The notes under the pieces were generated by a model. The model saw only the letters and a list, made by a program, of their open reading frames with translations, made no database searches and was not told the DNA's origin. DNA of 64,000 bases from Phycisphaerae bacterium (GTDB lineage Bacteria; Planctomycetota; Phycisphaerae; Sedimentisphaerales; Anaerobacaceae), in contig JAGOLX010000031.1 of NCBI GenBank assembly GCA_017993835.1, positions 1 through 64,000 of the forward strand, given 5' to 3'. Below are positions 45,853 through 51,320 of the stretch, piece by piece. The position numbers were made by a program, and so were the translations under genes. Numbering within the stretch: position 1 is the first letter of the stretch; every line of letters begins with the position of its first letter.

Positions 45853-46303
45853 GCTCCGCGCACCCGTTCGATCCAATCCCATCTCGACGCCATGGCCGCA
45901 AACCCTCAGTATACCACAACTGCCGAGCCCTGTGGAGATCACGCGACGACCCCGATGCACTCTTTCTTATCATCCTGAGCATGACAAAACGAATTCCGTC
46001 GAGAATCTCCCGCACATCCGTGAATCCCCGTCGTATTACAGGGAAAACAGAGACCGAGAACCGAAGGCGGGCCAGAGGTCTTTCATACTATTGGCCGTAA
46101 TCATACACCGTCATCATCGAACACCTATCATACCCGCCCCCCTTCGAAACCGTCGGACGAACGCGCGCTTTGCCGACGCCGCAACCGCAATGCGGTGCAC
46201 GTGGCCCCGCGTCGCAGTCCCGGCGGTATCCGCATCCACGCTGCTCAGCGTGCGTAAGTCCCTATTTCATAATCTCATACATTATTGTCGAAGGGAGTGG
46301 AGT
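45853..46303. other. divergent intergenic region before the HEAT/beta-helix gene
   Basis: 451 bases, less GC-rich than its surroundings. It contains a near-perfect inverted repeat, CACGCTG-CT-CAGCGTG (46237-46252), about 50 bases before the ATG, which could be an operator or a small leader hairpin. No promoter with both boxes was convincing and no small gene was seen. Confidence 0.4.
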
Positions 46304-48907
46304 ATGAGAGTGCGAACAGCAGTATCCGGCCTCGCAGCAATTATCTGTACCGTTGTCCTGTTGTCGTGTCCGGCGGTCCTTGGCAGGATCGTTTATGCTG
46401 ATGAAGATGCGCCGTTCGGAGGCGACACCGGTTCCTCTCCCAGCGGCCCGGACTACCGCTTGATCGTCCCCGGCGACCTCGACGGCATGCTACCCGTCGA
46501 TCTGAGAGATTCTGTCTGCCTGGGCGCTGATCGGGGGACGGACGACATCTCCTTCCCGGAAGAGCCCAATGAACCCAACATGTCTTACTACTCTGCGATT
46601 CTCAAAGACAAGGTGGACCGGATTCCCAATACGGCATCCGGCCAATTCGTGTTTCTCTATTCCTCAACCTGGAGTCCGCCCTGGCCCCATGCTCTTGCGG
46701 ATAGCCGCCTCGTCGCGCCGGAGGCCGTGCCGTACCTGATTCAGGTGCTCCGCGAGGGCCCTGAGTGGACAGATGATGAACTTCGGTCAGCAAGCAAGGA
46801 ATCGCCGCGTTATTACGCCCGATGTTATGCGGCCCTGTGTCTTGGGCTTTCCAAAGACCCACGGGCTTCTGACCCCCTGCTGGATGTCCTGCTGGACACG
46901 CAGATTGCGCCGTTCATTTCGCCGCACCCGGTCCGCAAAGACCGGTACGATCTCAGAGACTTCGCCGCATTTGCCCTTGGCGATCTGGGAGATTGCCGCG
47001 CGATCGAGCCGCTCCTGGCCGCGCTCAGGAGCGATCACTTTCCTCTCAGCATCTATTCTCTATTGAAGCTCCACGCGTTCAGCGCAGTCCCTTCCATCAT
47101 CGAGGTGGCCGTCGAGCACGATCTTCTGTCCACCACTGTCCACAGCAGCCTGATGTATGCTCTGAAGGTTCACTTCACCCTCGTGCATTCACATGAAGAC
47201 GAAACGTGGACCGTCGAAGAGTTCCCCGGCCTCTTGGGTAGCAGCGTGGGCGAAATCTGCGCGCAGCTCTGGCTTCATTGGCTTGACGCGGGTGACCGGT
47301 ATGCCCGCAACTGGTTTGACGCCTATTACTCCGAGTGGGATACCGCGGTGCGCGAGCAGCCTAACAATCACAGCTACCATAACGCCTTGCTCAACAAGAT
47401 GCTCACGGGCGGCATGGCGGCGACCCCATACATCATCGACAAGATGAAGCAGGGCGATGAGAGGCTCGTCGAGGCTATGACGCGTCTGATCCGTTGTTGG
47501 AAGGTCGAGGGCTGCACCGCGGCGGAGTGGCTCCAGTGGTGGACAGACAACCGGCAGCAGTGGCAAGTCTTCGACACGACGTCTGTCACCAAGATCCTGC
47601 GGGTGCCGGCTGGTTGCGCTACCATTCAGGCAGCTATCGACGCGAGTGTCGATGGCGATATGGTCCTCGTCGCCCCCGGCACCTACACCGGCGATGGGAA
47701 TCGCGACATCGATTTTGCCGGCAAGGCCATCACCGTCAAAAGCGAGACAGGCCCGGAACTCTGTATCATCCAATGCGGCGGTCAGTATCCGCGAGGTGAC
47801 GGAATCCCCACAAGATCCGCCACCATCCAGTTGATTGGGGTGGAATACCACCGCGGTTTCTACTTCCACTCCGATGAGGATGCGAATTCCGTCGTCCAGG
47901 GATTCACCGTTACAGAAGGGTATCTGCGAACGGAAGCAGGCGGCGCATTCTACTGTCTGGAGAGTAGCCCAACGATAAGGGATTGCATCATCACCGGGAA
48001 TGTGGCACGCCACGGGGGAGGAATTGCCGCCTACGATTCCAGTGCCCGAGTGGAGAACTGCGTCATCAAGGGGAATCTGGCAGCTTCCATACCGCTGGAC
48101 TTGGATTCCTCCTATGGGCAGTACGGACATGGCGGCGGGATAAGTACGGGCCGAGGAGCTGTTCGCATTCGCAATTGCCAAATCGTGGGCAACTCCGCGA
48201 GCGACAGCGGCGCAGGCGTGTCCTGTTCACAGGGAAGCCCGGAGATTGTGAACTGTACCGTGACAGGCAATCGAGCGGGCCATGCGGGGACGGGCGGGGG
48301 CATCTTCTGCGGATCTAATCGAGGGGGCAACACGTGCCATCTCAGGAATACCGTCATATGGGGCAATACTGCGGGGTCTTTGGGGAATGACATCGCTGTG
48401 CATACTGACGCTGTGATGCTGTGGACGATGGGGTGCCAACTTGACCACAGCTTTATCGGAGGCGATCCCAACGACTTGTATGATCCTGATGCGTGTGTCG
48501 ACGGGCGTTGGATCACGGGCGATCCACAGTTCGCGACTCCAGGCTACTGGGATCCCAACGGAACGGCGGATAAGCTGAGCGACGATTTCTGGATCGATGG
48601 CGATTACCATCTGAAGTCCCAGGCCGGGCGATGGGATCCGAACAGCGAAAGCTGGGTCCAGGATGACGTGACAAGTCCCTGCATCGACGCGGGCGATCCG
48701 AACAGTCCCATCGGCGACGAGCCATTCCTGAATGGTGGTCGGATCAATATGGGCGCCTACGGCGGGACCGCGGAGGCGAGCAAGTCGTACTTTGGCGAGC
48801 CGGTCCCCGACACGATCATCGCGGGCGACGTCAACGGCGACGGCAAGGTGGACTGGCTGGACCTTGAGATTCTGAGTCGCCATTGGCTCCAGGGATATCG
48901 CGAATAA
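46304..48907 (+). CDS. secreted HEAT-repeat / beta-helix / dockerin-type protein
   Basis: 867 residues from ATG 46304 (GAAGGGAG upstream), with a signal peptide (VSGLAAIICTVVLLSCPAVLG). Residues of about 130-360 form HEAT-like helical repeats (ARCYAALCLGLSKDPRASDP; FAALGDLGD-type FAFALGDLGDCRAIEPLLAA). About 430-790 is a right-handed beta-helix opening with VPAGCATIQAAIDASVDGDM and containing rungs such as GGGISTGRGAVRIRN. The last 30 residues are a dockerin-type calcium loop (AGDVNGDGKVDWLDLEIL). It is probably exported and held at the surface by the dockerin-like end. The HEAT plus beta-helix pairing is uncommon. No adjacent partner gene. Confidence 0.85.
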   Translation: MRVRTAVSGLAAIICTVVLLSCPAVLGRIVYADEDAPFGGDTGSSPSGPDYRLIVPGDLDGMLPVDLRDSVCLGADRGTDDISFPEEPNEPNMSYYSAILKDKVDRIPNTASGQFVFLYSSTWSPPWPHALADSRLVAPEAVPYLIQVLREGPEWTDDELRSASKESPRYYARCYAALCLGLSKDPRASDPLLDVLLDTQIAPFISPHPVRKDRYDLRDFAAFALGDLGDCRAIEPLLAALRSDHFPLSIYSLLKLHAFSAVPSIIEVAVEHDLLSTTVHSSLMYALKVHFTLVHSHEDETWTVEEFPGLLGSSVGEICAQLWLHWLDAGDRYARNWFDAYYSEWDTAVREQPNNHSYHNALLNKMLTGGMAATPYIIDKMKQGDERLVEAMTRLIRCWKVEGCTAAEWLQWWTDNRQQWQVFDTTSVTKILRVPAGCATIQAAIDASVDGDMVLVAPGTYTGDGNRDIDFAGKAITVKSETGPELCIIQCGGQYPRGDGIPTRSATIQLIGVEYHRGFYFHSDEDANSVVQGFTVTEGYLRTEAGGAFYCLESSPTIRDCIITGNVARHGGGIAAYDSSARVENCVIKGNLAASIPLDLDSSYGQYGHGGGISTGRGAVRIRNCQIVGNSASDSGAGVSCSQGSPEIVNCTVTGNRAGHAGTGGGIFCGSNRGGNTCHLRNTVIWGNTAGSLGNDIAVHTDAVMLWTMGCQLDHSFIGGDPNDLYDPDACVDGRWITGDPQFATPGYWDPNGTADKLSDDFWIDGDYHLKSQAGRWDPNSESWVQDDVTSPCIDAGDPNSPIGDEPFLNGGRINMGAYGGTAEASKSYFGEPVPDTIIAGDVNGDGKVDWLDLEILSRHWLQGYRE

Positions 48908-48937: not shown

Positions 48938-48977
48938 TTCGTTGGCATTATCGCTATGGTATTGATGGGAGAGTCGT

Positions 48978-51320
48978 ATGGGAACGCACAGTCGGGTCGG
49001 TTGTCGTCGGGTTAGGGAATCGAACGAATTCTACGCGCAGCATGGGTATATGGAGGTCCCTATGCTTGTGCAGTGGATGGCGACGCTTCGATGTGGACTT
49101 CGCTGCGAGCACTGCCTGGCGGTCAGTCGGGAGTCGGGGTTCTCGGATATGCCTTTGGAGGCGGTCCACAGGCTGATCGACGGGATCGCCCAGATGGGAG
49201 TGAAGGAGTTCCTGGTCACAGGAGGGGAGCCGCTCGCGAGGGAGGACCTGGGCGAGGTGATCGAGCACCTCGGACGCTCCGGCGTGAGCTGGACCCTCAA
49301 TACCGCGGTCATGCCCACGAAAACCCTTCGCGAGGTCCTCTCGCGGAACAAACCGGGCTTCGTCGCGGTGAGCCTGGATGGTCCCAAGGAAGTGCACGAC
49401 GCCTTTCGAGGTCGGGCGGGCGCTTGGGACGATGCGATGGAGGCGATCCGGTTCTTCAAATCGCTGGACGCCGTGCGGGTCTGCGCGGGTACGACCGTGA
49501 CGAGCCGCAATTACGACTATCTGGACGAGACCTTCCACCTGGTCACGACCAGCGGCGCGGACCAGTGGGGGATTCACCTGCTCGTCCCCGAGGGTCGGGC
49601 CGCGGACCGGCCGGACCTGTTCCTCTCGAAAACGCAGCTCAAGAGGCTCATCAAGTTCGTCGCACGCAGGCGAAGGCAGTTCCACGTCCAGATGGCCGAC
49701 GAGATCGGCTACCTGGGCTACCTCGAACCGCTGGTCCGCGACGTCCCGCTGACCTGCGGGGCGGGCCGGGCACAGTGCGTCGTCCTGCCCGATGGCTCGG
49801 TTGTCCCCTGCACGACCCTGGACCGCTCCTGCAGCGCAGGCAACGTCCACGACCGCCCGCTCCAGTCGATCTGGACGGAGGGCTTCGCGGACCTGCGGCA
49901 ATGGCGTCCGAACGGCAAGTGCGGCGGCTGCGAATACGCGGTCGCCTGCAAAGGCGGTTGCTGGCTCCAGCGCAAGGCTGGCACGCAATGCTTCAAGGAG
50001 GTCTGGCACGTGGCGGAAGCACTCAAGACCGCAGCGGGAATCGCGATCTGCTTAGGCAGTTTGGCGGTCGGCGAGGGTGCCAGTGCAGCGATTTTGGCGG
50101 GTCGCCCCGCTCGGCCGGCGAGTTTCCATTCGGCGTCGGCTTCTGCGACAACCCTGGAGTCGAGCATCAATGACTGGTACTTCAAGATGGCGGCCGGCCT
50201 TGATTTCGGCCTGCCCACGGCGGACGTGGATTGGTCCGATCCGGGCTGGGCATTCTTCAAGGACCTGATCGAGGGGACGATGCCCCAGGACATCACCGGG
50301 CGGTGCGCGAGAGTGGTCGATGCTCTGGAGACCCAGGAGAGATCACTGTCTTTGGTCGCGCTGTTGTGGCGCGGCGTGAATGGTCCTCTGTTCGAAGCTG
50401 ATCCTGCAACAGAGTATTCCCAGGCCGAGCGGCAGATCATCCGTGACACCCTGGGTGCGATCAAGCTGAAGGCTCAGGAATGGAGACTGGAGATCTTCGA
50501 GCAGAATCTGGACCCCTATCTCGCTGCTGGCAGGGTCACGGAGCGGCCGTTCTTTATGTACAGCAAGGCAGGGCCCCGCAAAGGGGATATCGAGCGGCAC
50601 TATCTGTCGAAGGATGTCAACGAAGAGCGCTGGGGCATTGGGAGCAGCCCTGATTCACGGGAGGCCGCCGAAGCGTATCTGCGGGCCCACCATTACGCAG
50701 ACCAGATGGATCTGAGGTTCGCATTCGGTCGCAGCGGATCGATCACGAAGTACTCCGCCGGGCAAGCCGAGGTCGTGGTTTCCCATGTGGGCAACACCTC
50801 CACAGGGACCCATCTACTCGGTGTCTTTGACGTAATCGCCACGGATATGGACATGTCTTTGCGTTTTGAGATCAGGGGGGACATCAAGCCGTATGACACG
50901 AACGAGGCGATCCTGCTGGGAGATGGAGGAGGCGAACAGGATATAAGAGCGACTGTTCAGGTCAACCTGACGGTGGGACGCGAGTACACCTATGTGGAAT
51001 TGATCGATGCGATCTACCGGCAGGGAAGATCTGAGTCTCAGAGACTATCGCTCCTGTGCATGGCCTATGACTGGCTGTCCCCAAGCCGCGTTTCACTGTG
51101 GGATCGTGAGGTCCCAGTCATGGTGACCGTTCACCAGAATGCGCCGCTTCTGTGGCCGGCGTTCCGCGAGATCATCGAGTCGGACACGATCCTCCCGACG
51201 CAAACGCCTTGGAACGGCTCGACGGGAGATCCCAGAGATCCCAGAGACCCCTCACCGGACGAAATCAGTCAGATCCACCGTCGGGCGGTTCTGAAGGACA
51301 CGGACTTCTGGATGTTCTGA
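48978..51320 (+). CDS. radical SAM/SPASM enzyme fused to a large unknown C-terminal domain
   Basis: 780 residues from ATG 48978 (GGGAG upstream). The radical SAM domain has the 4Fe-4S motif CGLRCEHC (Cys39, 43, 46) and VTGGEPLARED (80-90). A complete SPASM domain follows with Cys260, 267, 278, 285, 315, 318, 324, 328 and 338 (CGGCEYAVACKGGC), room for two auxiliary clusters. Such enzymes modify peptides (RiPPs) or activate sulfatases and quinohemoproteins. After a hydrophobic stretch (about 351-374, GIAICLGSLAVGEGASAAI) come some 400 residues with no recognised family, ending in a DPRDPRDPSPDE linker and KDTDFWMF. Whether this half is a substrate, a peptidase or a binding domain is unknown. 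No short Cys-rich precursor was found beside it. Confidence 0.85.
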   Translation: MGTHSRVGCRRVRESNEFYAQHGYMEVPMLVQWMATLRCGLRCEHCLAVSRESGFSDMPLEAVHRLIDGIAQMGVKEFLVTGGEPLAREDLGEVIEHLGRSGVSWTLNTAVMPTKTLREVLSRNKPGFVAVSLDGPKEVHDAFRGRAGAWDDAMEAIRFFKSLDAVRVCAGTTVTSRNYDYLDETFHLVTTSGADQWGIHLLVPEGRAADRPDLFLSKTQLKRLIKFVARRRRQFHVQMADEIGYLGYLEPLVRDVPLTCGAGRAQCVVLPDGSVVPCTTLDRSCSAGNVHDRPLQSIWTEGFADLRQWRPNGKCGGCEYAVACKGGCWLQRKAGTQCFKEVWHVAEALKTAAGIAICLGSLAVGEGASAAILAGRPARPASFHSASASATTLESSINDWYFKMAAGLDFGLPTADVDWSDPGWAFFKDLIEGTMPQDITGRCARVVDALETQERSLSLVALLWRGVNGPLFEADPATEYSQAERQIIRDTLGAIKLKAQEWRLEIFEQNLDPYLAAGRVTERPFFMYSKAGPRKGDIERHYLSKDVNEERWGIGSSPDSREAAEAYLRAHHYADQMDLRFAFGRSGSITKYSAGQAEVVVSHVGNTSTGTHLLGVFDVIATDMDMSLRFEIRGDIKPYDTNEAILLGDGGGEQDIRATVQVNLTVGREYTYVELIDAIYRQGRSESQRLSLLCMAYDWLSPSRVSLWDREVPVMVTVHQNAPLLWPAFREIIESDTILPTQTPWNGSTGDPRDPRDPSPDEISQIHRRAVLKDTDFWMF

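Follow-up and report, generated by a model that had tools for sequence, protein, structure and literature searches.

The window (the whole 64,000-nucleotide stretch of a Phycisphaerae bacterium contig that was analyzed) carries on its forward strand a single, complete open reading frame of 780 amino acids (48978-51320), which begins with ATG and has a ribosome-binding-like GGGAG (48967-48971, +) 6 nt 5' of this start. The encoded protein runs from a radical SAM/SPASM enzyme (residues 1-345) through a hydrophobic stretch (residues 348-372) into a domain of ~385 residues. An earlier note on this DNA had described a radical SAM/SPASM enzyme fused to an unrecognized domain, and this is borne out by the frame itself, by a 76%-identical full-length copy in the Phycisphaerales MAG UBA2218 (L005, the closest relative) and by seven further fused homologues (L006/L033, L007/L034, L008/L035, L055, L057, L058, and L059). 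The fusion gene is carried on contig C105 of genome G000 (6.37 Mb, ~99% complete), in which we count 48 radical SAM matches and no second copy of the C-terminal half. The gene on its 5' side, separated by 70 bases (~46133-48907, +), encodes a Disaggr_assoc beta-helix-like protein that also has HEAT/PBS repeats and carries a dockerin at its C-terminus; the dockerin end of this neighbor is seemingly lost in L005.

The enzyme half has the two hallmarks of the radical SAM superfamily, namely the core domain (residues 36-188; 49083-49541, +; Pfam PF04055, E 3e-15) and the CX3CX2C motif of the SAM-binding [4Fe-4S] cluster (C39, C43, and C46; 49092-49115, +), which is invariant in 14/14 aligned sequences; the cluster cysteines are kept in all close relatives, in agreement with the earlier note. 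A SPASM domain follows (C260 to C338; 49755-49991, +), matched by Pfam PF13186 over residues 260-319 (E 3e-9). The count of "3 plus 9" cysteines given previously is correct for the window protein (39/43/46, then 260, 267, 278, 285, 315, 318, 324, 328, and 338), but C285 is unconserved, so that the conserved set is three plus eight, with the eight SPASM cysteines (260, 267, 278, 315, 318, 324, 328, and 338) retained in 8/8 aligned fused proteins. Membership of the SPASM subfamily is recognized by seven to eight cysteines that serve two auxiliary clusters (PMC10452713), and the fused proteins conserve eight. More distant homologues, encoded by two adjoining genes (below), lack cysteines 315, 318, and 324 in four of four enzymes. 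Because these three correspond to AuxII ligands in the AhbD assignment (PMC10452713), the two-gene enzymes probably hold one auxiliary cluster, and their chemistry may differ from that of the fused enzymes.

The best NCBIfam match of the enzyme half is TIGR04133, at 169.6 bits against a cut-off of 425; heme b synthase AhbD (133 bits, cut-off 500), NirJ (105, cut-off 515), and the mycofactocin maturase MftC (130.5, cut-off 265) score similarly short of their thresholds, and none of the best 25 NCBIfam matches reaches a curated cut-off. A match to prokaryotic viperin, a defense protein, was set aside (37.7 bits, superfamily-level only; the fusion protein has a SPASM domain, viperin does not). 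The intact cluster cysteines uphold one part of the earlier proposal of an active peptide- or protein-modifying enzyme, whereas the modifying role is not established, the nearest SPASM families including the tetrapyrrole enzymes AhbD and NirJ. No PqqD-like RRE was detected in the fusion protein or in the ~99% complete genome G000; a diverged RRE could escape such a search.

The nine full-length fused proteins (window protein included) are scattered over several classes of Planctomycetota. Searching the window's phylum with the C-terminal half returned fused homologues in G098, G011, and G208, and profile searches added those of G443, G496, G501, and G491 from the window's own class. All share a start of the form M-[GAP]-x-[HY]-[ST], the order of enzyme, hydrophobic segment, and domain, and an aromatic-x-F/L end (DFWMF in the window protein; 51303-51317, +), the last of these being found also in a standalone form of the domain (L009, below). 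Enzyme halves are 48-67% identical among the fused homologues (87% in the closest pair) and C-terminal halves 17-44% (68% in the closest pair). The distribution of the family is sparse: 7/387 genomes of the class have a radical SAM hit at E<=1e-55, comprising five fused proteins, one two-gene pair, and one distant separate enzyme (G525). The joining of a SPASM enzyme to an exported partner, itself of an undescribed family, is genuine and conserved.

Two further loci hold damaged copies. The fusion gene can be lost, since genome G708, of the same genus, retains just its two ends in different frames (first ~46 and last ~17 codons; L060 4499-4778) at the syntenic place; G708 also lacks the upstream beta-helix gene. 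On contig C206 of G501, a second copy (L056 4877-6330), with a C-terminal half 85% identical to that of the other copy, has its enzyme end and C-terminal half in different frames and is cut by the contig end, so representing either a pseudogene or an assembly error.

The predicted exported partner domain (residues 396-780; 50163-51317, +) matches no described family, as the earlier note had supposed: residues 375-780 gave no Pfam or NCBIfam match at E<=1, PDB profile searches with either the C-terminal half or the two-gene partners returned nothing, and neither form matches the partner lipoprotein model TIGR04134. Plasmid records likewise held no match, and AlphaFold2 models of the C-terminal half (two sequences) had a pLDDT of 42, too poor for a fold search. 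Across 15 C-terminal-half sequences (fused, two-gene, and standalone), D618 is present in every one and W464-R465, inside LLWRG (50361-50375, +), in 14. A SKAGP motif (S529-P533; 50562-50576, +) is shared by the fused proteins and the two-gene partners; its K530 is kept in 13/15, the exceptions being L008 (Asn aligned, with a Lys close by) and the standalone L009 (Arg). No cysteine is conserved among the 15, and thioether formation on this half is therefore unlikely; nor does any position that never varies stand out as the kind of residue known to be a SPASM target. SKAGP, with K530 first, is a candidate modification or recognition site.

A check suggested in the earlier note, that the second half be sought as its own gene beside a radical SAM gene, proved positive at four distant loci. 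A profile search with the enzyme half reached more distant homologues, among them separate enzyme genes in G037, G111, G116, and G044 (L071, L072, L073, and L076) with a partner gene directly 3' of each, the junction being an ATGA overlap in L071, L072, and L073 and a 14-base gap in L076. Comparison by hhalign of the two-gene partners with the fused C-terminal halves (88%, E 3e-6, spanning SKAGP and the beta-rich part) supports their homology. The parts of the window protein are homologous to those of a two-gene system, in which a radical SAM gene is followed by the gene for an exported SKAGP-domain protein, but in fused form. Genome G324 (~81% complete) has the C-terminal half alone (L009), such that the domain can exist without a linked radical SAM gene; a radical SAM gene elsewhere in G324 was rejected as its partner, belonging to another family and adjoining no partner gene. 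L009 probably descends from a fused or paired ancestor, as it branches with the C-terminal halves of L006/L007 (tree support 96).

Two other loci have a comparable arrangement of genes. In G012 (L074 2687-5094), the gene directly 5' of a radical SAM/SPASM gene encodes a membrane protein that has two segments and HEAT repeats; hhalign gives no support for homology of this protein to the C-terminal half, the likeness being confined to a similar two-segment N-terminus. In G525 (L084 2087-3965), another radical SAM gene is overlapped by a gene whose product looks exported and has HEAT-like repeats. This product resembles the HEAT part of L009, and the two genes perhaps form a further pair of enzyme and exported partner.

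The hydrophobic stretch that the earlier note had seen between the halves resembles an export signal. In 9/9 fused proteins, hydropathy peaks beyond the last SPASM cysteine, and small residues and a site of the AxA type come next; in the window protein this signal-peptide-like segment spans residues 348-372 (ALKTAAGIAICLGSLAVGEGASAAI; 50019-50093, +), and in L007 it bears a lipobox-like LSAC. In the two-gene partners, two hydrophobic segments flank an Arg-rich RG[RH] loop, and an AxA-like site leads on from the second of them to the large domain; the second segment, counterpart of that in the fused proteins, is thus preceded by a positively charged loop. The standalone L009 has an ordinary N-terminal signal peptide. 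Taking hydropathy, charge, and the form of L009 together, the simplest reading would keep the enzyme in the cytosol and export the domain in fused and two-gene arrangements alike, and fusion would then have attached the enzyme at the cytosolic loop, replacing the first segment and preserving topology. Signal-peptidase cleavage after the internal segment would be the weakest part of this reading, because AxA-like sites turn up easily in Ala-rich linkers.

Both halves are under purifying selection. Between the window gene (48978-51320) and L005 (674-3022), dN/dS is 0.14 for the enzyme and 0.13 for the C-terminal half, with the lowest value (0.05) over residues 691-780. Synonymous divergence in the same comparison is uneven, dS being 0.56 in the enzyme half and 1.57 in the C-terminal half (neighboring genes 0.48-0.74), and a change-point scan of fourfold sites locates a step at codon 345/348 (31% versus 58% differences; 0/5000 permutations as strong). 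Most likely, one lineage had its C-terminal half replaced by a diverged homologue; differing codon constraint may be an alternative, against which bears a neighboring gene of low GC3 whose dS is not high. At greater depth, the trees of the enzyme and of the C-terminal half/partner are broadly congruent, both recovering the two-gene clade and L055+L058 (L006+L007 more weakly), and we therefore regard such exchange as infrequent, the two halves having traveled together.

Because the same parts are overlapping neighbor genes in other planctomycetes, the attached cargo is probably what the enzyme acts on or acts with. The account that we favor, to which we give a little short of an even chance, is that this SPASM enzyme has an exported partner of its own, here fused to it, which it modifies in cis before export. 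Residues 1-345 would remain cytosolic as the catalytic part, residues 348-372 or thereabouts would serve as internal signal peptide or membrane anchor, and the part from about residue 396 to residue 780 would reach the cell-envelope side, probably released by signal peptidase; the enzyme would radically modify a residue of its own attached, unfolded domain before or during Sec export, and the separate-gene version would act likewise in trans on its partner. We infer the topology, the cleavage, the partner as substrate, and the modified residue (K530 as first candidate) from sequence. Consistent with modification in cis are the intact enzyme, the fusion itself, the homologous two-gene operons, the standalone form with its signal peptide, the broadly congruent trees and purifying selection, together with the faster divergence of the C-terminal half relative to the enzyme, the lack of any other common neighbor, and the lack of a PqqD match in G000; sulfatase maturation and MNIO-modified precursors (below) serve as precedents. 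Against it, a co-translational signal might move the C-terminal half out of the cytosol before the enzyme reaches it; no radical SAM gene is linked to L009, three SPASM cysteines are missing from the two-gene enzymes, and no invariant residue of the C-terminal half stands out as a typical SPASM target. The earlier suggestion of a fusion that may bring its own substrate or keep hold of an exported client stands as the best reading, at slightly less than even odds. A fuller version, a self-maturing exported protein whose substrate is carried behind a cleavable internal signal, modified in cis, exported by Sec, and separated by signal peptidase, we consider rather unlikely.

The main rival, a possible but doubtful one, is that the exported half serves as membrane anchor, receptor, or structural partner of an enzyme that acts at the membrane on a small molecule or lipid (e.g., a tetrapyrrole), the exported half using or delivering the product. 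AhbD, NirJ, and NirJ2 are indeed among the nearest NCBIfam models, besides peptide maturases; the missing RRE and PqqD would fit such an enzyme, as would the anchoring of the two-gene partners beside a conserved, probably cytosolic Arg-rich loop. However, the AhbD and NirJ cut-offs are far off (133/500 and 105/515 bits), no tetrapyrrole or lipid gene is common to the loci, and the partner diverges quickly, more so than one would expect if it bound a small molecule.

We also considered whether the enzyme has other exported proteins as its targets, for instance the adjoining dockerin/beta-helix and CARDB proteins, with the C-terminal half as a client-recognition or membrane-tethering domain. The beta-helix/dockerin gene is close by on the same strand, and the beta-helix and CARDB genes are kept in L005. 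Yet the beta-helix/dockerin, CARDB, and GH3 genes near the fusion gene are common to L005 only, and the other fused and two-gene loci have nothing of the kind save one short CARDB-repeat similarity in L035 (CARDB being a common domain); comparison of all these loci revealed no third shared gene. The neighbors put forward in the earlier note are unlikely clients for this reason, making the explanation improbable, while its remark that no separate precursor lies nearby holds in the sense that no neighbor is common beyond L005. Finally, a non-functional fusion, decaying or mis-assembled, is very improbable in general and already refuted by conservation for the window copy: the G708 remnant (~46 + ~17 residues), the frame-shifted, truncated one of the two G501 copies, and the sparse distribution are outweighed by the uninterrupted, full-length genes of nine genomes from several classes, in which all cluster cysteines are kept, and by a dN/dS of ~0.13.

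The substrates of most radical SAM/SPASM enzymes are unknown. In the present case, the fusion, the paired genes, and the concordance of the trees point to one specific partner, and a one-protein test becomes possible. Were the partner the substrate, this would be a rare enzyme covalently tied to its exported client, raising the timing of modification relative to Sec export, a question shared with MNIO-modified exported precursors (PMC12452194).

Compared with the radical SAM/SPASM superfamily at large (PF04055 plus PF13186), the window enzyme has the expected CX3CX2C, core domain, and full eight-cysteine SPASM set, but is fused C-terminally to an exported domain via an internal signal-like segment and has no RRE. 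TIGR04133/TIGR04134, by the family names a radical SAM/lipoprotein pair, resembles it in coupling a SPASM enzyme to an exported partner of its own, and supplies the best NCBIfam match of the enzyme half; the window score is nevertheless far under 425, the C-terminal half has no TIGR04134 match, and enzyme and partner form one chain. A literature search found no paper that treats TIGR04133/TIGR04134 or a SPASM maturase from a planctomycete. Sulfatases are commonly exported proteins. They can be matured by SPASM enzymes, the anaerobic sulfatase-maturating enzymes (anSME; PMC8326336), and action on a large protein client is what we propose for the window fusion, which differs in having neither a sulfatase domain nor a conserved Cys/Ser target motif, anSME being absent from its best 25 NCBIfam matches. 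MNIO-modified precursors (bufferins) carry Sec signal peptides, for which there is preliminary evidence of a role in recognition (PMC12452194). Theirs is a different enzyme class, encoded in separate genes with partner proteins and acting on small Cys-rich precursors, but the order of events, cytosolic oxidative modification and then Sec export of a protein client, is the one that we propose for the window fusion.
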